Both the position numbers and the translations under genes were made by a program. This document shows, piece by piece, positions 1 to 38,099 of a stretch of 53,887 bases of DNA. Source of the stretch: a bacterium (lineage in GTDB: Bacteria > Patescibacteriota > Saccharimonadia > Saccharimonadales > Saccharimonadaceae); contig JAUIFG010000006.1 of assembly GCA_030429445.1 (NCBI GenBank), forward strand, positions 1-53,887. The letters run 5' to 3'. Position 1 is the first letter of the stretch. Each line of letters opens with the position of its first letter. The notes under the pieces are model-generated. The model was not told where the DNA came from. It did not search any database and was given only the letters and a program-made list of their open reading frames with translations.

Positions 1-213
1 TCTACCAGCTGCACAGGCGCTACTATATCTGGACAAAGTAATTACCTATTTGACGACGGCAATGCGCGAGCGTCCTTTGATGTTGGCAATATAACTAACA
101 GTGATGATTTTGGTATTGAAATCGCAGCTCAGGGTACTGCCGATAGACTTGGCTTGGGGGGAACAAGCTTCCTGTCCTATTCGAGCCAGTTGAAACGAGT
201 GAGTTGGGGTGAC
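1..213 (+). repeat. near-identical direct repeat, copy A (in RCC1 gene 1)
   Basis: This segment pairs with 1782-1994. The last ~113 bases (100-212 against 1881-1993) are identical and the earlier part has only scattered substitutions. It encodes the linker between the pilin-like stalk and the RCC1 domain. Identity this high beside divergent flanks points to recent duplication or gene conversion. Confidence 0.9.
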
Positions 214-1488
214 GGAGTGATTGGTAGTGGTGGTGGTAGCGGTTCCATTCTCCAGGTTGACATGGGTAGGGGTCATGCATGTGCACTTGTAAGCAGTGGA
301 GTTTACTGCTGGGGGAGCAACAGTTGGGGGCGGCTTGGTACTGGCGGTACACCCAGTAGCTCATCAACGCCATTATTAGTATTGCAAGAGCCAGGTGTCA
401 TGGCTGGCGAAACAATAACGCAAATTTCAATAGGCGAATACACTACATGCGCCGTTAGTGCGAGTGGAAAGCTATTTTGTTGGGGTCAACGTATTCCTCA
501 TGATGGATGGAGTGATAATAAGCCAGTTCGAGTGGGAGGTGCTTTGCTGGGCAAAAGCGTAACTGCGGTGAGTGTGGCGGGAGATTTCATATGCGCTATT
601 GCTGATGGCAAGATATATTGCTGGGGTGATGACGAGTATGGATTGGTGGATCCAGTAACAGGGCCCTACTATTTTGGGCTTGGTGGTATGGGCACCGGAA
701 CGGGCCTGCATTACGATGAATATATGCTTCCTTCTAGTGTAACTACAGTAAATACCCCCACGCTGGTAACGAGTACTTATCTCCCCGCTAATTATCAGGC
801 GACAAAGCTTGCTCATGCCGGAGCGATAACCACGCAAATGTGTGCAATTCTGAATACTGGCCAGATGTATTGCTGGGGAGGGAATCGTAATAGTGAACTG
901 GGCGCCAATATTGGTATCTATAGTCCTAGCTACTACGAAACTCATTATAAATATGTGGATGCACCTTATCCCGTATATAACAATGGCTATTTGGATGGCA
1001 ATGGTGTAACCACTGTTGCAACGAACGGTACAACCTATAATGCTAGTAATGTTTCTTGTGCTATTAGCAATGGATATCCGTATTGTACTAGGATTAACGC
1101 ACCTCCGCCTTCGCCTGCGCCAGGTAGATTTGAAAGGATAACAGCGGGATCGTACGCTCAACCAGTATTTGATATCGCCACGGGCGGACAACTTCAGCAT
1201 ACGTGCGTACTTGCTCAGGATGGTTTATACTGTTGGAGCGCACGATTTCTTCCTGGTAGTCCTTGGTATAATTCGAGCAATAATGATCCCGTACACATAC
1301 CTACTCTGGGCGGACAATCTACGACAAATCTCGTGTCTGTTACGGCCTATTGGAATGATGTATGCGGTTTATATGCTGATGCCCATCTGTATTGTTGGAA
1401 CGGTCTTGGTCAGAGTGGCAACGGTACGCTAACTAACCTTACCGAAATAACACAAGTCTACAACCTCGTTCACGGCCTTTACTTCTAA
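1..1488 (+). CDS. RCC1-repeat, Cys-rich surface protein (5' partial), tandem copy 1
   Basis: The reading frame is open from base 1, so the true start and any N-terminal anchor lie outside the window; 495 codons are visible before TAA. The protein carries successive RCC1/BNR-like repeats marked by YCWG or FCWG motifs, each preceded by a Cys (for example HACAL...YCWG), which suggests a disulfide-stapled beta-propeller outside the cell. Bases 1-213 match bases 1782-1994 of the next gene almost exactly, including about 113 identical bases, while the propeller regions differ. By analogy with copy 2 the missing part should be a prepilin-type membrane anchor. Role is inferred: pilus-associated adhesin or surface recognition protein. 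No partner is identifiable. Confidence 0.8.
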   Translation, partial: STSCTGATISGQSNYLFDDGNARASFDVGNITNSDDFGIEIAAQGTADRLGLGGTSFLSYSSQLKRVSWGDGVIGSGGGSGSILQVDMGRGHACALVSSGVYCWGSNSWGRLGTGGTPSSSSTPLLVLQEPGVMAGETITQISIGEYTTCAVSASGKLFCWGQRIPHDGWSDNKPVRVGGALLGKSVTAVSVAGDFICAIADGKIYCWGDDEYGLVDPVTGPYYFGLGGMGTGTGLHYDEYMLPSSVTTVNTPTLVTSTYLPANYQATKLAHAGAITTQMCAILNTGQMYCWGGNRNSELGANIGIYSPSYYETHYKYVDAPYPVYNNGYLDGNGVTTVATNGTTYNASNVSCAISNGYPYCTRINAPPPSPAPGRFERITAGSYAQPVFDIATGGQLQHTCVLAQDGLYCWSARFLPGSPWYNSSNNDPVHIPTLGGQSTTNLVSVTAYWNDVCGLYADAHLYCWNGLGQSGNGTLTNLTEITQVYNLVHGLYF

Positions 1489-1529
1489 AAGCAACATTGC
1501 GTATGTATGATAAGGATAAACTAATAAAC

Positions 1530-3203
1530 ATGAACCAACCCAACGGATTTGTACTACCTCTTGTTCTGGTCGTTTCGCTTGCAACACTCTTTATATTAAC
1601 TCCACTGATTGCAAAGTTCGTCACATCGCTCGATATTTCACATGCTAGTTACCAAGCGAGGGTTGCAAAAGAAAGTGCACGCGCAGGACTTGCCTATGCG
1701 ACAGCTTGCTACAACGAGAGTGAAGGTGACCAGACTTGGGGCTCGGCAGCAGTAGGAGGGGCTCGACCAAACCTTACGCCATCTACCAGCTGCACAGGCG
1801 CTACTATATCTGGACAAAGTAATTACCTGTTTAATGATGGCAATGTACGCACGTCGTTTAACGTTGGCAATATAACCAGTAGTGATGATTTTGGTATTGA
1901 AATCGCAGCTCAGGGTACTGCCGATAGACTTGGCTTGGGGGGAACAAGCTTCCTGTCCTATTCGAGCCAGTTGAAACGAGTGAGTTGGGGTGATGATAAG
2001 TTGTTCGAGGCACCTGAAGTACAAATTGATCAAGGTACTAGTCATACCTGTGTGCTTTTGAACGGTGAGGTTTGGTGTTGGGGGACAAATGGTAATGGAG
2101 AGTTGGGTATTGGTAGCAGTTCCCCGAGTTCTTCATCGACGCCGTTAAAAGTTCTACAGGCACCGGGCGTGATGGCGGGCGAAAAGATAGTAAAGATATC
2201 GATCGAAGGTTCAACATCCTGTGCAATTAGCGAGAGCGGTAAGCTATTCTGTTGGGGGGTCTCTGTCGGTTCCTCCTCGGGGAGTTACAGTAATTACTCA
2301 CCATATCGAGTAACAACTGGTGGATTACAAAACCTAAATGTTACTGATGTTAGTGTTGCTCATTTGAATCTATGCCTAATTGCCAATGGTAAGGTGTATT
2401 GCATGGGGGCGGATGTTACTGGTTCACATGGTAACGGAAGTGGCAGCGGACTAGTGTTTGCAGGATGGGCTAGCGGTTATCTCACGCTGACCCCAACGCT
2501 TGTAACAACCACCTATTTGGGGAGTGGTTATAATGCAGTGAGTCTTGCCAGGACTGGACATCTGTCTACATCAATGTGCGCAATCCTTGATACTGGACAA
2601 ATGTATTGCTGGGGTGGCAATATTGATTCGCAACTAGGGTTAAATATAGGCATGTACTGGTTCGGATACTGGCAGACGAACTATCCAGGAGTAAGTGTTC
2701 CACGACCTATATACGATACCGCCTCTGGCACTAACAATGGCTATTTGGACGGTAACGGAGTTTTGGCTGTGTCGACGGCAGGGACGGGTGATTTCTGGTC
2801 CCCTCATAATGTTTCATGCGCTATAAGTAATGGCGATCCATATTGCACTAGAGCAAGGAGCGTTACTCATCGCAACGGTCCGTTCGAGAAAGTTAATGGT
2901 TCATATACAAAGCCAGTATTTGATATTACTGTGGGCAATAGTGCGTACCCTGCGTGTTTGCTTGCTCAGGACGGCCTGTATTGTTGGGATGCCGATGGCT
3001 CGAGTACTCTCACAAAGATCGCGACGGTTTCAGGGAAGTCTACGACGGAGATGTTGAGTATTCAGGCGCATAATAATAACATTTGTGGAATATTCTCTGA
3101 TGGTCACGCCTATTGCTGGACTGGCATTAGCGGAAGCGGCACCCTTACTAATGTGACTGAAATAACACAAATCTATAATCTCGTTAGTGGTGCTTACTTC
3201 TAG
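1530..3203 (+). CDS. prepilin-like, RCC1-repeat Cys-rich surface protein, tandem copy 2
   Basis: The preferred ATG at 1530 gives MNQPNGFVLPLVLV, a short polar leader followed by GF and a hydrophobic segment (about residues 6-30). This resembles type IV prepilin or PilX-like N-termini, although the usual Glu+5 is absent. TTG 1497 and ATG 1503 are alternative in-frame starts. Next comes a pilin-like helix (HASYQARVAKESARAGLAYA), then a linker that is nearly identical to copy 1, then RCC1-like repeats with CWG motifs and many Cys. The 3' ends of both copies are also similar. Inference: an exported pilus-tip or surface adhesin, with a conserved anchor and a diversified propeller. It starts 41 bases after copy 1, so co-transcription is likely. 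Confidence 0.8.
   Translation: MNQPNGFVLPLVLVVSLATLFILTPLIAKFVTSLDISHASYQARVAKESARAGLAYATACYNESEGDQTWGSAAVGGARPNLTPSTSCTGATISGQSNYLFNDGNVRTSFNVGNITSSDDFGIEIAAQGTADRLGLGGTSFLSYSSQLKRVSWGDDKLFEAPEVQIDQGTSHTCVLLNGEVWCWGTNGNGELGIGSSSPSSSSTPLKVLQAPGVMAGEKIVKISIEGSTSCAISESGKLFCWGVSVGSSSGSYSNYSPYRVTTGGLQNLNVTDVSVAHLNLCLIANGKVYCMGADVTGSHGNGSGSGLVFAGWASGYLTLTPTLVTTTYLGSGYNAVSLARTGHLSTSMCAILDTGQMYCWGGNIDSQLGLNIGMYWFGYWQTNYPGVSVPRPIYDTASGTNNGYLDGNGVLAVSTAGTGDFWSPHNVSCAISNGDPYCTRARSVTHRNGPFEKVNGSYTKPVFDITVGNSAYPACLLAQDGLYCWDADGSSTLTKIATVSGKSTTEMLSIQAHNNNICGIFSDGHAYCWTGISGSGTLTNVTEITQIYNLVSGAYF
1782..1994 (+). repeat. near-identical direct repeat, copy B (in RCC1 gene 2)
   Basis: Partner of bases 1-213 (see copy A). 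Immediately downstream, from about base 1995, the two genes diverge into different propeller sequences, so the repeat ends sharply at the start of the variable domain. Confidence 0.9.
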
Positions 3204-8314: not shown

Positions 8315-8342
8315 TTGACTACATTTCAAATTATATTATAGT
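8315..8342 (+). promoter_or_regulatory. MFS exporter promoter
   Basis: TTGACT (8315-8320), 16 bases, TATAGT (8337-8342). It is divergent from the rplA promoter, with only seven bases between the two -35 boxes. Confidence 0.6.
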
Positions 8343-8441
8343 TATGATATCTTCGTCACCCTGACGAGTGTGGAATAATTTTCATGCACCGGGGGCGATC
8401 GAAGCCCTTTGACATGTGGAACAATCCGAAAGAAGGTTGTT

Positions 8442-9974
8442 GTGAACAAAGACACAGAGTGTGCAGTTTCGGAAGGCGTGAATAAGCGAAAAGTCTTGTT
8501 AATTTTTGCAGGGCTACTTGCGGCGATGTTTTTGGCGGCACTTGACCAAACTGTGTTTGGCGTTGCCCTGCCAACTATCGTCGGAGATCTGAACGGTGTC
8601 GAGCATATGCTATGGGTGACCACGGCTTATATTCTGGCGTCGACTATCGTGATGCCGATTTATGGCAAGTTGGGCGATCAGATAGGCCGAAAACACCTAT
8701 TTATTGGTGCAATCCTATTGTTCGTAGCTGGCTCGATCCTTGGTGGCCTGGCAAATGACATGACCTGGCTCATTATCGGTCGTGCCGTTCAGGGTGTCGG
8801 TGGCGGTGGTTTGATGATTTTGGCGATGGCAATCATCGCCGACTTTGTACCTGCCCGAGACCGTGGTCGATACATGGGTATCATGGGTGGCGTCTTTGCT
8901 CTTTCATCCGTCATCGGGCCCCTTTTGGGGGGCTGGTTTACCGAAAGCATTGGTTGGCGATGGGTGTTTTGGATGAATATTCCCGTGGGAGCCCTTGCTC
9001 TTGTTTTGGCACTGATATTTTTGCCAAAGCCAAAGGCTATAACGAACAGGCCAAAGCTGGATGTTGCAGGTATTTTTTTGCTGGCAATGACATCAACGGC
9101 AATTGTCTTGATTTCGACATGGGGTGGTTCGATGTATGCATGGACATCATCGATTATCCTCTCGCTCATCACGGCGGCAATCGTCGGAGCTATTGCGTTC
9201 ATTTTTGTTGAGCGTAGAGTAACCGAACCCGTTATGCCAGGTGCGTTCTTTAGGGACCGCAACTTTATACTGGTGACGATTGCGGGATTAGTAACTGGCC
9301 TGGCGATGTTCGGCACACTGGCGTATATACCTACGTATATGCAGATGGTCACCGGCTTTAATGCAACGCAATCCGGTTATTTGATGATTCCTATGATGGC
9401 AGGCCTGCTGATAACATCTGTTGTCACGGGTCGTATCGTTAGCAATACGGGGCATTATAAGTGGGTGCCTGCTATGGGCATGGGTGTTGTGGCGGTCGCA
9501 CTTTTCCTACTGTCCACTATGACTCCGACGCTACCAATTTGGCAATTGTGTACGTATTTGACGCTGATGGGTATTGGCTTGGGCATGAATATGATGATTA
9601 TGGGACTCATCGTCCAAAATCAGTTCCCCGCACAAGTCGGTACAGCAACAGCGGCAAACAACTATTTCCGTCAACTTGGCGCATCATTAGGTGCGGCATT
9701 GGTGGGGAGTCTATTCGTCAACAATCTGAAGAATCTCTTTACCGAGCGTTTTCCAGATGCAACAGCGATCGGTGTTGGTCAGAACTCACTGACTCCAGGA
9801 ATCGTGCGTTCGTTGCCAGATAGTGCAAAAGATATCGTCATCAGTTCGTATAACGATGCGATGACCCCTGTCTTTTTGTATATGATACCGTTCATTGTGG
9901 TGTCATTGGTGGTCCTCCTCTTTATTAAAGAGAAGCCACTCGCGACAACTCTTGAGCATGGTAACGTTCTCTAG
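8442..9974 (+). CDS. MFS multidrug exporter, DHA2 (EmrB/QacA) family
   Basis: 510 aa from GTG 8442, chosen because AGAAGG lies five bases upstream; TTG 8409 is an in-frame alternative without an SD. About 14 hydrophobic segments are predicted, as in the 14-TM DHA2 family. Motif D1 is LDQTVFGVALPTI, motif A is GKLGDQIGRK and motif C is ALSSVIGPLLGG. Family members export drugs or toxic compounds with proton antiport; the substrate is unknown. It sits between rplA and the micro-operons with its own promoter and terminator. Confidence 0.9.
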   Translation: MNKDTECAVSEGVNKRKVLLIFAGLLAAMFLAALDQTVFGVALPTIVGDLNGVEHMLWVTTAYILASTIVMPIYGKLGDQIGRKHLFIGAILLFVAGSILGGLANDMTWLIIGRAVQGVGGGGLMILAMAIIADFVPARDRGRYMGIMGGVFALSSVIGPLLGGWFTESIGWRWVFWMNIPVGALALVLALIFLPKPKAITNRPKLDVAGIFLLAMTSTAIVLISTWGGSMYAWTSSIILSLITAAIVGAIAFIFVERRVTEPVMPGAFFRDRNFILVTIAGLVTGLAMFGTLAYIPTYMQMVTGFNATQSGYLMIPMMAGLLITSVVTGRIVSNTGHYKWVPAMGMGVVAVALFLLSTMTPTLPIWQLCTYLTLMGIGLGMNMMIMGLIVQNQFPAQVGTATAANNYFRQLGASLGAALVGSLFVNNLKNLFTERFPDATAIGVGQNSLTPGIVRSLPDSAKDIVISSYNDAMTPVFLYMIPFIVVSLVVLLFIKEKPLATTLEHGNVL

Positions 9975-9986
9975 CTGGAGGAATCC

Positions 9987-10043
9987 ATGAGGTGGGCCGC
10001 TATAAAATATGGCGGTCCACCTACAATCCACATGTCATATTAA
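9987..10043 (+). CDS. possible 18-codon mini-ORF containing a hairpin
   Basis: A strong GGAGG (9977-9981) starts three bases after the exporter stop and stands five bases from an ATG that opens an 18 aa frame, MRWAAIKYGGPPTIHMSY. The 11-bp inverted repeat 9990-10022 lies inside it. It could be a real peptide, a coupling device at the 3' end of the mRNA, or chance. No homology can be argued at this length. Confidence 0.3.
   Translation: MRWAAIKYGGPPTIHMSY
9990..10022 (+). other. 3'-end hairpin without U-tract
   Basis: Arms 9990-10000 and 10012-10022 (aggtgggccgc / gcggtccacct) give an 11-bp stem with one G-T pair. It is followed 22 bases later by a normal terminator. The same two-hairpin ending recurs at 10674-10763 and 11229-11300. 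Confidence 0.6.
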
Positions 10044-10066: not shown

Positions 10067-10095
10067 TTGACTATTTATAATATTTATGCTAAAAT
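10067..10095 (+). promoter_or_regulatory. promoter of micro-operon 1
   Basis: TTGACT (10067-10072), 17 bases, TAAAAT (10090-10095): near-consensus spacing. The leader to the ATG is about 80 bases. Confidence 0.65.
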
Positions 10096-10182
10096 AATAA
10101 ATGTTTATTAGTAGACACTTGCATCTGCCTGTTTGTCTAACCAAGAACGTTAATAAGTGGAAGTAATCAGTCGAAAGGTTTT

Positions 10183-10485
10183 ATGGTGGACCATCTATCT
10201 AGTCATTCATCCGTTGAGTGTGACGTCAGGTTGCTGTGTAGTATCATTGCGCGGCTGAACGTCCGGTCATTATCAGACGCTGGTTCGAACGTGTGCGAAA
10301 TCTTCCATGGTGCAATAGCAGACGTGAGTGAATTAAATGCTCGACTAATCATAGAGCAAGAGTTTCGTGAATCAACGGGCGCAAAATTGAGCAATCAAGA
10401 TGTTTTGTGTTCTCTGCCCCATGGGGCCGTAGAGAAAGATCAACAGCTCGCTCAGGTCATTCCATTCAGATCAAAGCGCGTCTAA
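10183..10485 (+). CDS. unknown 100 aa protein, micro-operon 1 first gene
   Basis: ATG with AAAGG four bases upstream. It is soluble, with four Cys (positions 13, 19, 38 and 80) and a basic C-terminus (IPFRSKRV). The middle (residues 40-70) looks helical and acidic. I do not recognise a family. It is followed after 14 bases by a 52-codon Arg/Trp-rich gene with its own SD. The close promoter, SD and terminator make a genuine expressed unit likely; toxin-antitoxin-like, regulatory or peptide-processing roles are all possible and none is supported directly. Confidence 0.6.
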   Translation: MVDHLSSHSSVECDVRLLCSIIARLNVRSLSDAGSNVCEIFHGAIADVSELNARLIIEQEFRESTGAKLSNQDVLCSLPHGAVEKDQQLAQVIPFRSKRV

Positions 10486-10499
10486 CGAGAGGAAATAGC

Positions 10500-10658
10500 A
10501 TGACCCATTTCACTACCCCTGGTGGTCCGAACTACAATCGGATGTTTCGGGAGTTTAGTCGCTGGTATCGTAGCTGGCGACAATCTCGGAATGCCCGAAC
10601 CGAACAGCATCGTTTGGCCCTCCAGGTCGATTTGATGTCTGGAAAGAGCACCGACTAA
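10500..10658 (+). CDS. 52 aa Arg/Trp/Tyr-rich small protein, micro-operon 1 second gene
   Basis: GAGAGG stands seven bases before the ATG. The core (residues 13-31: NRMFREFSRWYRSWRQSRN) is a strongly cationic, aromatic, probably helical stretch. It resembles residues 2-19 of the second micro-operon's 34 aa product (NRVTRAMGRVLWTWMTRN): the pattern NRxxRxxxR...W...RN is shared with one gap. This suggests a paralogous pair. Cationic Trp/Arg helices can bind RNA or membranes; which applies here is not known. Confidence 0.6.
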   Translation: MTHFTTPGGPNYNRMFREFSRWYRSWRQSRNARTEQHRLALQVDLMSGKSTD

Positions 10659-10673
10659 CACCTGTCGTGGGAA

Positions 10674-10710
10674 CCGCCCCGTCGAGCTGATTATTCGCTC
10701 GGCGGGGTGG
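10674..10710 (+). other. long GC-rich 3' hairpin without U-tract
   Basis: Arms 10674-10687 and 10697-10710 pair over 14 bp with two G-T wobbles, and pairing can continue outward (ggaa / ttcc) past a 2-base bulge. It lies 16 bases after the 52 aa gene and before the terminator at 10738. Confidence 0.65.
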
Positions 10711-10737
10711 AGTTCCGCGCGCTTCCACTTGTTATTT

Positions 10738-10763
10738 CGCCACCTCAATGAGGTGGCGCTTTT
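10738..10763 (+). terminator. intrinsic terminator of micro-operon 1
   Basis: cgccacctc-aat-gaggtggcg stem of nine pairs followed by ctttta. Confidence 0.85.
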
Positions 10764-10768
10764 AATTA

Positions 10769-10797
10769 TTGAAAATAAACAAGTTTTATGTTATAAT
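10769..10797 (+). promoter_or_regulatory. promoter of micro-operon 2
   Basis: TTGAAA (10769-10774), 17 bases, TATAAT (10792-10797), among the strongest promoters in the window. The ~100-base leader can form CAAGG/CCTTG and AAAGAT/ATCTTT hairpins before the SD. Confidence 0.75.
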
Positions 10798-10901
10798 AAG
10801 CATAGTTTCGTTATTCGGAACAAGGTATTTATATATATCCTTGGAAAGATTGGCGTAACCGATCTTTTCAATGAGTGGAACAACAATCGAGAGGTGGTCA
10901 G

Positions 10902-11117
10902 ATGACTGATCAGCAAAGAATTCCAAAAAGTCGAATCCAGACTGCATTTCGCGATGCAGACCTGCGGGTTCCGACAGACGCCGAAATGGACGAATCACAA
11001 AGGTTTGTCGACAACATCTTTTCGTCAAAAAGCTCCCAGCCTCACTGTTGGGTAGAAGACATGCTCGTTCCGACAGGCATCGAGCTCGGTGCATTAATCG
11101 AGGAGGAAGAATCATGA
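10902..11117 (+). CDS. unknown 71 aa acidic protein, micro-operon 2 first gene
   Basis: ATG 10902 is preceded by GAGAGGTGG at good spacing; an upstream in-frame GTG (10875) lacks one. The protein has a basic N-terminus (QQRIPKSRIQTAFRD), an acidic tail (EEEES) and one Cys. No family is recognised and similarity to the 100 aa protein of micro-operon 1 is not convincing. Its stop overlaps the next ATG as ATGA (11114-11117), so the two products are probably made in a fixed ratio. Confidence 0.6.
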   Translation: MTDQQRIPKSRIQTAFRDADLRVPTDAEMDESQRFVDNIFSSKSSQPHCWVEDMLVPTGIELGALIEEEES

Positions 11118-11218
11118 ATCGTGTCACCCGAGCGATGGGCCGTGTCCTGTGGACATGGATGACTCGCAATGTTGACGTGAGTGAGATTGGCGACCCCTTT
11201 GCCGTCAGTCTTGACTAG
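11114..11218 (+). CDS. 34 aa Arg/Trp-rich peptide, micro-operon 2 second gene
   Basis: GGAGGAAGA lies immediately upstream. The peptide starts NRVTRAMGRVLWTW and continues MTRN, matching the NRxxRxxxR...W...RN core of the 52 aa product of micro-operon 1, then has an acidic tail (DVSEIGDPF). It overlaps the upstream gene by four bases. It is too short for most gene finders. Function unknown; the repeated arrangement, SD and terminator argue that it is translated. Confidence 0.6.
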   Translation: MNRVTRAMGRVLWTWMTRNVDVSEIGDPFAVSLD

Positions 11219-11228
11219 TTCCATTCAG

Positions 11229-11264
11229 ATGGTGACCAGCGCAGAATCTTGTGCTGGTCACCAT
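11229..11264 (+). other. perfect 12-bp 3' hairpin without U-tract
   Basis: atggtgaccagc (11229-11240) pairs perfectly with gctggtcaccat (11253-11264) across a 12-base loop. It stands 10 bases after the 34 aa gene and before the terminator at 11277. Confidence 0.75.
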
Positions 11265-11276
11265 ATATCTACCAGC

Positions 11277-11300
11277 ACACCCTATCAAGGGTGTTTTTAA
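11277..11300 (+). terminator. intrinsic terminator of micro-operon 2
   Basis: acaccct-atca-agggtgt stem followed by tttttaa. Confidence 0.85.
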
Positions 11301-11341: not shown

Positions 11342-13000
11342 ATGGAAGAGATCAAGCAAGCCCTCAAGCAGTATAAATTCACTGGTGATATTGATGATTC
11401 TAGCGAAACACTCGATTTTTATTCACATGATGCTAGTATGTTTGAGCTTCGTCCGCAGTTGGTGATTTCACCAAAGACTGCAAAGGATGTCGAAACCGCC
11501 GTCAAGGTGGTAAATGAACGAAAAAAGCACCAACGCAACCTGTCGCTGACGGCGCGAAGTGCTGGGACTGACATGTCAGGTGCGGCGATTAATGATTCGA
11601 TTATCGTTGATTTCAAGAAGCATCTCAACAAGTTTATTGATCTAAAAAAAGATACTGCTGTTGCTCAGCCGGGTTTGCTGTTCAAGGATTTTGATAACTA
11701 TACTGGTGATTTACTATTGCCCACCTACCCCGCCAGTCGTGATTTGTGCGCAATGGGCGGAATGGTCAACAATAACTCGGGTGGTGAAAAGTCGTTAGAA
11801 TTTGGCAAGACCGAGAAATATGTACCAGAATTGAAATTTGTATTTGCAGATGGCGTGGAGCGTGTTGTAAAACCTCTCGACCGCAAAGGTTTAAATAAAA
11901 AGATGGATCAGGATGATTTCGAAGGTAGAGTCTATCGTGATTTGTTTGAGTTAATCGACAAGCATTACGATCAGATAAAAAAAGCAAAACCAAACGTGAG
12001 TAAAAACTCAACTGGCTATAATTTGTGGAATGTTTGGGATCGCGAAACAGGGATATTTGACCTGACACAAGCAATTATTGGTGCTCAGGGCACGCTTGGT
12101 CTCGTTACAGAGACGAAGTTTCGTCTAGTGCCGCGTCCAAAGCATTCGGGGTTACTAGTTTTGTTCATGCGTGATATTGACGAGTTGGGTGAACTCATCG
12201 AAAAAGTACTTGAACACAAACCTGCAACGTTTGAAGGTTTTGATGATCAGACATTATGGCTTAGCATTCGGTTTATGCCAAGCTTTTTACGTCTGCTCGG
12301 ACCGGTGAAGTTTTTGCGCCTCGTGTTTGGCTTGATACCAGATGGCCTTCAGTTGCTCAAAGGATTCCCAAAACTGGTCATGCTAGCAGAATTTACGGGT
12401 GATACCGAGGATGAAGTTCGGAGCAAGATAAAGGCATTGCATGGTGACTTGAAGCACGTCAAATCACGCTATGAAATTAACGGTTTTGAAGAAACACCAA
12501 CAGAGGGTGCGAGTGAAAAATTTTGGGTTATGCGACGCTACAGCTTTCAACTGTTACGCAGCAAGGTTCATGACAAGCACACGGCGCCGTTTATTGATGA
12601 TTTGGTGGTAAACCCTGAACATCTCCCTGAGTTTTTGCCAAAGCTTCGCAAGCTTATCAAAAAGTACAAGTTATTTGCAACAATCGCTGGGCACATGGGT
12701 GATGGTAATTTCCACGTTATTCCACTGATGAAATTGGAGAACCCAAAGGATCGCGCAAAAATTTTACCTGCCATGAAAGAAGTGAACGACCTTGTTTTGA
12801 AATACAAAGGTAGTTTGTCCGGCGAGCATAACGATGGCTTGGTTCGTGGTCCATGGCTAGAGGCTATGTATGGCAAAGAAATGGTCAAGCTATTTCGCGA
12901 AACAAAAGATATTTTTGATCCGCAAGGTATATTCAATCCGCACAAAAAAGCCAATGCTGATTGGGATTATAGCTTTACGCACATTCGTGATCGTTTTTAA
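11342..13000 (+). CDS. FAD-linked oxidoreductase, GlcD / D-lactate dehydrogenase type
   Basis: 552 aa. The N-terminal PCMH-type FAD domain has RSAGTDMSG near 72-80 and GGMVNNNSGGE near 137-147. The C-terminal FAD-oxidase domain has HMGDGNFH at 451-458, SGEHNDG at 493-499 and a FDPQGIFNPHK ending. Family members oxidise 2-hydroxy acids such as lactate or glycolate; no Fe-S domain is fused. A run of hydrophobics around residues 310-335 may mediate membrane association. The -10 TAAGAT (11327-11332) ends nine bases before the ATG and there is no SD, so the message is near-leaderless. Substrate unknown. Confidence 0.88.
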   Translation: MEEIKQALKQYKFTGDIDDSSETLDFYSHDASMFELRPQLVISPKTAKDVETAVKVVNERKKHQRNLSLTARSAGTDMSGAAINDSIIVDFKKHLNKFIDLKKDTAVAQPGLLFKDFDNYTGDLLLPTYPASRDLCAMGGMVNNNSGGEKSLEFGKTEKYVPELKFVFADGVERVVKPLDRKGLNKKMDQDDFEGRVYRDLFELIDKHYDQIKKAKPNVSKNSTGYNLWNVWDRETGIFDLTQAIIGAQGTLGLVTETKFRLVPRPKHSGLLVLFMRDIDELGELIEKVLEHKPATFEGFDDQTLWLSIRFMPSFLRLLGPVKFLRLVFGLIPDGLQLLKGFPKLVMLAEFTGDTEDEVRSKIKALHGDLKHVKSRYEINGFEETPTEGASEKFWVMRRYSFQLLRSKVHDKHTAPFIDDLVVNPEHLPEFLPKLRKLIKKYKLFATIAGHMGDGNFHVIPLMKLENPKDRAKILPAMKEVNDLVLKYKGSLSGEHNDGLVRGPWLEAMYGKEMVKLFRETKDIFDPQGIFNPHKKANADWDYSFTHIRDRF

Positions 13001-14464: not shown

Positions 14465-15013
14465 TTAGTTTGCGCGATCAAATCTTTGATCAAAGAAAGT
14501 ATCGGGATCGTACACTCGGGCTCTAATTGATTCAACGGGAATGGCAAATGTATTGGCTACGGCGAATTCTTTTGATTCTATATCCAGGTGGGGGCGCAAA
14601 AAGCGAGGCTCAACGAACTGCGCGAATAGACGATCTTTGTCGTCACTGTGTCCAAAGATAAATTCATCAAAGTATCCGCTAAACAAGACGGGCTTGTCGT
14701 AATCGGCTACTACATCGTCCTCACTCAGTGCGAACAGACGATTTGCGACAACGGCAAGCCGACGCTCCAGTATAGCCGTGGGCATGCAGTTATTGAGCTC
14801 ATCTTTGCCAGCATCACCCATGATGACACGAAAATCCGGGTCATCGGCAACATCTATTGTTTTTTGAAATTCTTGTGCAAGTATGAACGGGTCTCTTTTT
14901 ACGGTACTTTCGAGAACGGGGAGTGATCTTACCATGTAGCTAAAGAGTTCGCTGATTCTCTCTTCCCTCCACTCATTACTATTATCATTTGAATAATTTT
15001 CGTAATTTGTCAT
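14465..15013 (-). CDS. unknown 182 aa acidic protein
   Basis: GGGAG stands six bases before the ATG. Soluble, Asp/Glu-rich, with no signal peptide. It is unrecognised. Its C-terminal third (IESKEFAVANTFAIPVESI) resembles that of the next upstream gene (EENEKIAISGFMTIPITAI), hinting at a shared fold. The flanking genes on the same strand are the 177 aa unknown upstream and the polytopic membrane protein downstream, so the three may be one unit. Confidence 0.7.
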   Translation of the reverse strand: MTNYENYSNDNSNEWREERISELFSYMVRSLPVLESTVKRDPFILAQEFQKTIDVADDPDFRVIMGDAGKDELNNCMPTAILERRLAVVANRLFALSEDDVVADYDKPVLFSGYFDEFIFGHSDDKDRLFAQFVEPRFLRPHLDIESKEFAVANTFAIPVESIRARVYDPDTFFDQRFDRAN

Positions 15014-15068
15014 GATATCTCCCGCTTGTTGTATATCCTACGCCAAATGTCGATACTTTTCAATGTCC

Positions 15069-15602
15069 TTACCTGAAGGCATCAATGATTCGATAACTGC
15101 TAATTGCGGTGATTGGGATAGTCATAAACCCACTTATGGCGATCTTTTCGTTTTCTTCATTGAGGTATGCGGCATTAAATAATCGCAACGAAAGAATCGG
15201 ACGAGTACTATTTGTTTCAGGATCAGTATAGAAATGCTTCTCAATGTATGACATCTGGCCTCCCGCACGAAGGTGTCCTTGAATATCGAGTGCCCGTAAG
15301 GCTCCTTGCATTTCAGAGGCTACGTATTGTAGGTGAGGAACGCCAATTTGACCTTCGAGTTGCACGTCCACTAGCGCATTGATGAAATTATAGTTGTAGT
15401 GAAGGCCGATTAAGTCTACTCCTTCTCGTACATACATTTCTTGTACTTCGGGCGACATATCTTTTATAAAGTGTTGCATGGCTCGTGCGCAGACTATCGG
15501 GTCAGAAGATTTTTCAACAATTTTTTCAAATAGATTGGGTGGTAATTCTGGCAAGTTGTCTGGTTCAAATGATGCTTCCCACTTTTCAAAGTCTTTATAC
15601 AT
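15069..15602 (-). CDS. unknown 177 aa protein with SD inside a terminator hairpin
   Basis: Soluble and helical in the first half (ARAMQHFIKDMSPEVQEMYV), with a likely beta-rich C-terminal part. Unrecognised; weakly similar at the C-terminus to the following 182 aa protein. The GAGGAG ribosome-binding site is seven bases from the ATG and forms the 3' arm of the hairpin 15603-15632 that terminates rplK. A TTGACA-based promoter starting just after rplK would begin transcription within that hairpin, leaving the SD free. Confidence 0.72.
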   Translation of the reverse strand: MYKDFEKWEASFEPDNLPELPPNLFEKIVEKSSDPIVCARAMQHFIKDMSPEVQEMYVREGVDLIGLHYNYNFINALVDVQLEGQIGVPHLQYVASEMQGALRALDIQGHLRAGGQMSYIEKHFYTDPETNSTRPILSLRLFNAAYLNEENEKIAISGFMTIPITAISSYRIIDAFR

Positions 15603-36758: not shown

Positions 36759-37415
36759 TCAAGAACGTTCAATTCTCATCTTTGAAGCAATGTCGGGATT
36801 TAAATCATTATCTAACATTGCCTCCGCAATCATGGTCAGTGTATCCTCAGTTTGTTCAAGTATCGGTACAACGTACCCTTGTAGAGCGCTCAGTAGTATA
36901 GCGCTTTCTTTGTCTGTCATTTCATTGACCAAATACCCGTTAACTCTGTCTAGTCTGACATCAGGGACTTCACCTGAATCGTTATCAAAAACCACTCGCG
37001 CGGAGTGGCTGTGATATGTTCCGTAACGGTAGTCAAATGTATCACTAAATGATTCCACGTCCATCACTCTTCCATCATGTATGAATTTATCCCGTACGAC
37101 ATAGGGGCGCACATTATATATCGTATGGTCCTTACTTCGCCATATTCGCATGTACGTGTCGTATGTTTCGTTACCGTACTGCCTGCTGTCAATCTTTATG
37201 ACAAAAGAGTCTTGAGGGTATCTATTGCCCCTGTTAAGCGCCATAAACATTATTGTAAGGCCTCGACGACATTCACGCCATTGTATAGCAACTAGTTCTT
37301 TTTCTTTTTCTATTAAGTCTTGTTTTTCTGCGGGTAGCAACGTCTCGAGCTCAGCTTTAACGCGTTGCACATCACTGATGTGTCGCGTGTTCTTTTCTAT
37401 TGAACCCAAATCCAT
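36759..37415 (-). CDS. unknown 218 aa protein, ESFSDT family copy 2
   Basis: Soluble and mixed-charge. It shares with the upstream gene the blocks IQW(R/D)xC, Y(M/I)R(I/V)WR(S/D)K, ESFSDTxxYxxG and xSA(I/V)L.xALxxxVxPxLExT, in the same order and spacing, so the two are paralogues. An N-terminal coiled-coil-like part (VKAELETLLPAEKQDLIEKE) differs from the partner. GGGTGGG precedes the ATG. Family not recognised. Confidence 0.75.
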   Translation of the reverse strand: MDLGSIEKNTRHISDVQRVKAELETLLPAEKQDLIEKEKELVAIQWRECRRGLTIMFMALNRGNRYPQDSFVIKIDSRQYGNETYDTYMRIWRSKDHTIYNVRPYVVRDKFIHDGRVMDVESFSDTFDYRYGTYHSHSARVVFDNDSGEVPDVRLDRVNGYLVNEMTDKESAILLSALQGYVVPILEQTEDTLTMIAEAMLDNDLNPDIASKMRIERS

Positions 37416-37481
37416 TCGTACCCACCCGTATAATAATTACGCTGTCACTATAACACGAGCTGGGAGAATATAATAGTACAC

Positions 37482-38099
37482 CTAGGTTGTTTCAATATCC
37501 AAGACTGCGCTCCAAAGCTCAGCAAGCCTTGCTTTTGTCCGTTCAAGCGATGGAAGTACTTCTGTCTCGAGAGCACATATCAATACGGCCGTCTCGAACT
37601 GAGTTTTGTTATCAGTAAGCCCGCCATCACTCTTCGCTAGCTTTATCTGACCATCAAAATCTTCCCGTAGCTGGATCTTCGCGACATGATCGTTTGTTGG
37701 ACCAAATTGGTAGGTGTACGTATCACTAAAACTTTCCGTTTCTTTGCGATCGATGATTTCTCCTCTGTATCGCAAAAGCTGACTCGTGTTATAGGTATCA
37801 TTATCTCCGTTCTTATCCCTCCATACGCGGATGTATGCTTCGGCAGATGAACTCGAATCTCGATCGGTGTTTATATCAAACAGATCTAATTCATTTACAC
37901 TGTAGAGGTTTAGCCTGTCGAACAATGCCCTAAAGCTGTTGTTGCACTGATCCCATTGTTGGATTGCTATTTTACGAAAGCCCTGACACCATTGCTCAGC
38001 TTCATCGGGCGTCAATGTTGCCAACCATTCTCTCGTTTGGCTAATAGACATATTTTGAGTAGCGTTGGGGTCTCGCTGTGGGAATTCTCCGCTCGTCAT
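37482..38099 (-). CDS. unknown 205 aa protein, ESFSDT family copy 1
   Basis: Paralogue of the following gene (shared IQQWDQC, AYIRVWRDK, ETESFSDTYTYQFG, and VLICALETEVLPSLERT). Soluble, acidic, no signal peptide. TACATT lies about ten bases before the ATG and no SD is obvious. Lies between the rpsI terminator and its paralogue. No function can be assigned. Confidence 0.75.
   Translation of the reverse strand: MTSGEFPQRDPNATQNMSISQTREWLATLTPDEAEQWCQGFRKIAIQQWDQCNNSFRALFDRLNLYSVNELDLFDINTDRDSSSSAEAYIRVWRDKNGDNDTYNTSQLLRYRGEIIDRKETESFSDTYTYQFGPTNDHVAKIQLREDFDGQIKLAKSDGGLTDNKTQFETAVLICALETEVLPSLERTKARLAELWSAVLDIETT

Follow-up and report, generated by a model that had tools for sequence, protein, structure and literature searches.

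Layout of the locus

The window is a 53,887-nucleotide stretch of a Saccharibacteria genome (G000). On its + strand an MFS transporter gene (8442–9974) is followed by two small transcription units, unit 1 and unit 2, and then by an FAD-oxidase gene (11342–13000). The original prediction had described two adjacent micro-operons, each with a near-consensus promoter of 17-base spacing, a leader of 80–105 bases, an open reading frame of 71–100 aa, a second of 34–52 aa, a hairpin and a terminator. When both were checked on the sequence all of these elements were found: each unit comprises a promoter, a leader, a small gene, a smaller gene, a GC-rich hairpin and a terminator, and a Shine-Dalgarno (SD)-like sequence is present at all four starts.

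The promoter of unit 1 (TTGACT-17-TAAAAT with an extended −10; 10067–10095) was located by sequence scan and with the genus-wide promoter consensus. From the predicted transcription start site (TSS), a leader of ∼81 nt containing a local hairpin (10102–10182) leads into gene 1 (10183–10485), which encodes an acidic 100-aa protein, predicted to be mostly helical and without a known family. Gene 2 (10500–10658) has its own SD sequence and encodes a 52-aa basic peptide rich in Arg and Trp (pI 11.2). There follow a conserved GC-rich 3′ hairpin with the loop UGANUAUUC and a ΔG of about −34 kcal/mol (10671–10718) and an intrinsic terminator (10738–10758). Unit 2 has a TTGAAA-17-TATAAT promoter, again with an extended −10 (10769–10797), and a leader of ∼98 nt (10804–10901) that is conserved in the related genome G068, promoter and leader together being 69% identical. 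Its first gene (10902–11117) encodes an acidic 71-aa protein (pI 4.3) and overlaps, through an ATGA sequence, a gene for a 34-aa peptide (11114–11218); a 3′ hairpin with 15-bp arms (11229–11264) and an intrinsic terminator (11277–11294) complete the unit.

The scanned region contained 20 promoter-like sites, compared with 9.0 (sd 2.9) in shuffled sequences. A strong consensus promoter, TTGACTWTTTAT..TATTTATGCTAAAATA, precedes many small or hypothetical genes of the genus (8315–8342, 10067–10095 and 10769–10797 in the window; L007–L024). Many cassette transcripts of the genus also appear to start with AGT(A/T)TCG and a short hairpin at the inferred TSS (leaders at L006, L008, L056 and L058).

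The transporter gene, which has a GTG start at 8442, shares the UTR architecture of the two units, including a 3′ hairpin (9990–10022). Its product exceeds the cutoff of the EmrB/QacA model TIGR00711 (275 bits against 230) and is thus a DHA2-type efflux pump, differing from other members of that family by the complementary transcript ends described below, which are found both here and in genome G067.

A genus-specific insertion with rapid turnover

Saccharibacteria are tiny, parasite-like bacteria. In sister genera of the window genome, rplA adjoins the FAD-oxidase gene with gaps of mostly 90–180 bp and without any such units. Within the genus, all eight members with a locatable oxidase gene carry an insertion between the two, made up of differing micro-operons or small genes. 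The MFS gene is at the locus in half of them (G000, G067, G062 and G063) and not in the others (G068, G024, G061 and G065). The array is a genus-specific insertion with species-level turnover, and the locus is a hot spot.

Other genomes of the genus hold cassettes of the same general make-up, with an acidic small protein and a short second peptide that is strongly basic in two cases. One cassette is common to G067 (L058) and G062 (L056) and encodes two peptides, one acidic and of 33 aa (WVDxLND...EE), the other basic and of 34–37 aa (ERRLxxLQ..PNxPxLP). Elsewhere in the window there are two pairs of adjacent hypothetical genes of similar size within each pair (14465–15602, with counterparts in G068 and G024, and 36759–38099) and, at 154–3203, two tandem genes whose products carry RCC1-like repeats; the N-terminus of the second product resembles that of a pilin.

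The cassette-like turnover, and the conserved hairpin that ends each unit, would suit integron-like recombination cassettes in which the 3′ hairpin serves as an attC site. However, all of the hairpins lack a flanking RYYYAAC...GTTRRRY pair, and the hairpin flank pairs with the leader instead; we find such an origin hardly credible.

Conservation and character of the small proteins

The relatives used for comparison were MAGs labelled Candidatus Saccharibacteria or Patescibacteria in GTDB, in agreement with the placement given in the original prediction. In a DNA search across the genus, the syntenic locus of G068 (contig C8) proved to hold a three-unit array in which each of the four genes has a homologue and the gene order is kept; all four open reading frames gave significant pairwise matches to these homologues. 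The 100-aa protein is 55% identical over 65 aa to its 101-aa counterpart, the 52-aa peptide 41% identical over its last 27 residues, and the two unit 2 proteins 46% (26 aa) and 33% (27 aa) identical. Values of pN and pS were 0.34 and 0.81 for the 100-aa gene, 0.49 and 0.63 for the 52-aa peptide and 0.48 and 0.70 for the 34-aa peptide, and for the 71-aa protein pN was also the lower value over its conserved end; the 100-aa gene shows the difference clearly, the peptides less clearly. The lack of frame conservation that would have refuted the original prediction was not seen, but the frames are conserved in only a few species, all of a single genus. Among 295 family genomes and 393 class genomes, the 100-aa family was found in G000, G068 and G024 only, all of this genus, and a covariance model of the 3′ hairpin gave strong matches only in these three; hairpin and loop are conserved in four copies. 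G024 has two near-identical units of the 100-aa type with small leader indels, at the ends of contigs C21 and C30 (L104:1353–1826; L008), representing either a tandem duplication or strain variants that broke the assembly.

None of the four proteins matched Pfam, NCBIfam, PHROG or PADLOC, and none gave the match to a known toxin or antitoxin family that would mark a type II toxin–antitoxin system. A model of the 100-aa protein has three helices at low confidence (pLDDT 63); the PDB gave neither a fold match to this model, a weak query, nor a sequence relative. A phage or virus origin was considered and rejected: the 100-aa protein has no relatives in IMG/VR or INPHARED, and at the DNA level the matches to phages were short and either promoter-like or due to chance.

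The original prediction had grouped the two short peptides by a shared pattern, NRxxRxxxR...W...RN, and had called both cationic. The pattern can be written for both, but the alignment of one to the other was not distinguishable from shuffles (p = 0.07), while each peptide matched its own G068 orthologue (p < 0.0004). The NR..R...R residues are kept in neither orthologue, and kinship of the two peptides is to be dropped. The first genes of the two units are dissimilar in pairwise comparison, as had been claimed. The description as cationic holds for the 52-aa peptide and fails for the 34-aa peptide, which has a pI of 6.0 and a net charge of −0.5 and is therefore not cationic overall; its N-terminal half is cationic and aromatic and its C-terminal half acidic. 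Across the genus, the second peptides range from strongly basic to slightly acidic, and the first proteins lie between acidic and near-neutral and look mostly helical by sequence. The idea of a peptide-plus-partner cassette is supported, without the peptide kinship, in that both pairs keep their order in a second species and similar pairs occur elsewhere in the genus. The acidic small protein and the very short peptide of one cassette are probably translationally coupled partners, and a coupled protein pair is the simplest reading of the cassette products.

Such a pair could also be a toxin–antitoxin or bacteriocin–immunity module, in which the short peptide would be active and the first protein would neutralise it. 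The combination of an acidic first protein with a short, often basic second peptide, the independent promoters, the high turnover between species and the efflux transporter adjoining in four genomes are all consistent with this, as is the strong amphipathicity of the 52-aa peptide. However, that amphipathicity is weaker in relatives, the 34-aa peptide lacks the positive charge, the transporter is not at the locus in the other four members and the family searches named above gave no match. We regard this explanation as improbable. A small hydrophobic peptide of the type I toxin kind was not found among the four proteins, whose GRAVY values run from −1.24 to 0.01 without a long hydrophobic stretch.

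Complementarity between transcript ends

An inverted repeat, absent from the original prediction, joins the leader of unit 1 (10151–10163) to the segment between its hairpin and terminator (10722–10734). The 5′ strand of the predicted helix, TAATAAGTGGAAGT (10151–10164), ends 18 nt before the AUG, just upstream of the SD sequence, and the 3′ strand is GCTTCCACTTGTTA (10721–10734). The transporter transcript has the same arrangement, with a 5′ strand TGACATGTGGA (8410–8420) located 21 nt before the GTG and a 3′ strand TCCACATGTCA (10027–10037). In unit 2, a weak candidate variant (5′ strand GAGTGGAAC at 10873–10881, partner at 11217–11226) was seen in the minimum free energy fold only.

We assessed each unit by taking the linker upstream of the terminator as the fixed 3′ side and comparing the leader with shuffles that preserved its dinucleotides; the 3′ UTR of the G068 MFS gene and the leader of the G062 MFS gene lie beyond contig ends and were left out. 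Leader and linker were complementary at p ≤ 0.035 in seven of the 11 testable units, from four genomes, and at p ≤ 0.007 in six of those seven. In the window, p was 0.0005 for the transporter and 0.002 for unit 1; in the relatives it was 0.001 for G067_MFS, 0.0015 for G068_U2, 0.003 for G067_U1, 0.007 for G024_U1 and 0.035 for G068_U1. The remaining four units (unit 2 of the window, G024_U2, G061 and G062_U2) were not significant.

The complementarity was then followed across species. In the three orthologous units (window unit 1, G068 and G024), 97% of cells were paired and five of 13 pairs had changed on both sides; two of 500 shuffles paired as highly, and slid registers gave 33–56%. For all seven units, 91% were paired and 11 of 13 pairs showed changes on both sides, compared with 35–45% for slid registers, figures that are optimistic and overstate the support because this alignment was put in register by the complementarity itself. 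Conserved complementary 5′ and 3′ UTR segments, a feature of mRNAs of the hbs/icaR/hok group, are thus present at this locus, and judged from these sequences the complementarity between mRNA start and end appears to have been kept by evolution in several units.

We also ranked 287 gene–terminator combinations, covering 98% of the window genome, by leader/3′ complementarity. Unit 1 and the MFS gene came second and third, and the overall distribution was that of a mismatched control with no general excess. End-pairing is therefore local to certain units and not a habit of the genome, and its treatment as a general genome feature was rejected. A hypothetical single-gene unit of the genome (G000 C10:39397–40003) has a strongly structured leader and 12 bp of leader/3′ UTR complementarity. 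Complementarity between hairpin loop and leader, noticed by eye in the window only, was not found in relatives and was discarded. Rfam gave no covariance model match at the gathering score, with two sub-threshold chance hits.

The lack of a genome-wide excess, and the several cassettes without a helix, would be expected if the complementarity were due to chance or to shared ancestry without structure, the units then being simply small, highly transcribed accessory genes. Against this, the orthologues show compensatory changes, significance recurs unit by unit and the spacing to the start codon is similar; we consider it very unlikely.

Position of the predicted helix and its possible effect

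The putative helix is 10–19 bp long. Six units were folded, with predicted long-range pairing probabilities of 0.92–1.00, and in six units the order is gene or genes, hairpin, pairing strand, terminator. Between the end of the helix and the start codon lie 17–20 nt in five of these folded units and 12 nt in the sixth; for the MFS gene the distance is 20–21 nt. Removing the 3′ strand hardly altered the energy needed to open the SD–AUG region in five of the six. For the wider region from −35 to +13, five units needed 9–20 kcal/mol more to open with the helix present than when the RNA was cut back to the hairpin. In two G067 units the helix stops close to the SD region or runs into it, and the pairing of the G067 MFS transcript extends to the SD sequence.

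Our preferred explanation, to which as a whole we assign a rough probability of 0.45, is that the units are accessory two-gene cassettes with coupled products, and that the unit 1 and MFS mRNAs are paired at their ends in a manner that protects the message. Each cassette would be an independent transcription unit at the hot spot flanked by rplA and the FAD-oxidase gene. The leaders of unit 1 and the MFS gene would pair with the segment that separates the stable 3′ hairpin from the terminator, closing the message and keeping RNases from its 5′ region and its 3′ end. The SD sequence and start codon would stay free, and closure might determine the time over which the message is translated, on the model of the Bacillus subtilis hbs mRNA. 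The conservation of the complementarity and its position are observed directly; the formation of the helix in cells and its effect there are our inference.

The same helix may act in the opposite direction, through fold-back repression of the hok, aapA or icaR kind. The 5′–3′ helix would block ribosome docking and keep the finished mRNA silent until 3′ trimming removed the helix strand, halted at the stable hairpin and left an active message. The order of elements in the six units suits such a switch, with the hairpin before the pairing strand as a natural stop for trimming; the easier opening of −35 to +13 after truncation and the G067 MFS pairing agree with it, and hok and aapA provide precedents. 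However, five of the six units leave the SD sequence and start codon themselves unpaired by the helix, the antisense strand has only weak promoter-like sites whose positions do not match in G068, none of the proteins is a hydrophobic toxin of type I, and the helix is also found on an MFS transporter. We think repression rather unlikely on balance, while giving it real weight.

The protective, hbs-like reading is preferred because the SD sequence is mostly left free, yet the data do not decide between the two. Telling against protection are the two G067 units with the helix near or at the SD sequence, which would fit repression, the 9–20 kcal/mol cost of opening, and the fact that unit 2 and several cassettes of relatives are without a significant helix. 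Either way, the arrangement points to control of the small proteins at the RNA level.

Relation to known systems

Pairing of 5′ and 3′ UTRs is known in bacteria from a few single mRNAs, and to our knowledge neighbouring, unrelated transcription units that share it at a variable locus have not been described. In the B. subtilis hbs mRNA, a 14-nt pairing between the UTRs protects from RNase Y (PMC7821165). The cassettes resemble this small mRNA in having a single predicted 5′ UTR–3′ UTR helix, of 10–19 bp, with the SD sequence mostly free. They differ in that hbs is one Firmicute gene for which RNase Y protection was shown, whereas here several unrelated neighbours are predicted from sequence to share the pairing and carry an extra hairpin before the pairing strand.

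Fold-back repression has its precedents in hok, aapA and icaR (PMC4147584, PMC6733600, PMC11228461, PMC7821165). As in hok/Sok and aapA/IsoA, the mRNA ends would be paired and removal of a 3′ segment would free the leader; unlike those systems, the cassettes have two genes, no hydrophobic toxin and no conserved antisense RNA that we could find, and the device is also on a transporter. In the Staphylococcus aureus icaR mRNA the two UTRs likewise pair, close to the ribosome binding site, but through a short anti-SD sequence (UCCCC), whereas the helix here usually lies 17–21 nt before the start codon and leaves the SD sequence mostly free.

It is conceivable, though we hold it doubtful, that the shared, selected feature of the locus is not the proteins but the RNA design, in which the end of the leader pairs with the 3′ UTR downstream of a stable hairpin. 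Unrelated small genes and a transporter, on arriving at one site, would then adopt a common mRNA design, forming a lineage-specific cassette system.

We found little literature on small proteins or toxin–antitoxin systems in Patescibacteria. Neighbouring operons that share end-pairing with compensatory evolution would offer a natural test bed for whether closure of an mRNA stabilises or silences it, and the tiny unannotated proteins that they encode represent a fast-turnover accessory gene pool in the reduced genomes of Saccharibacteria.
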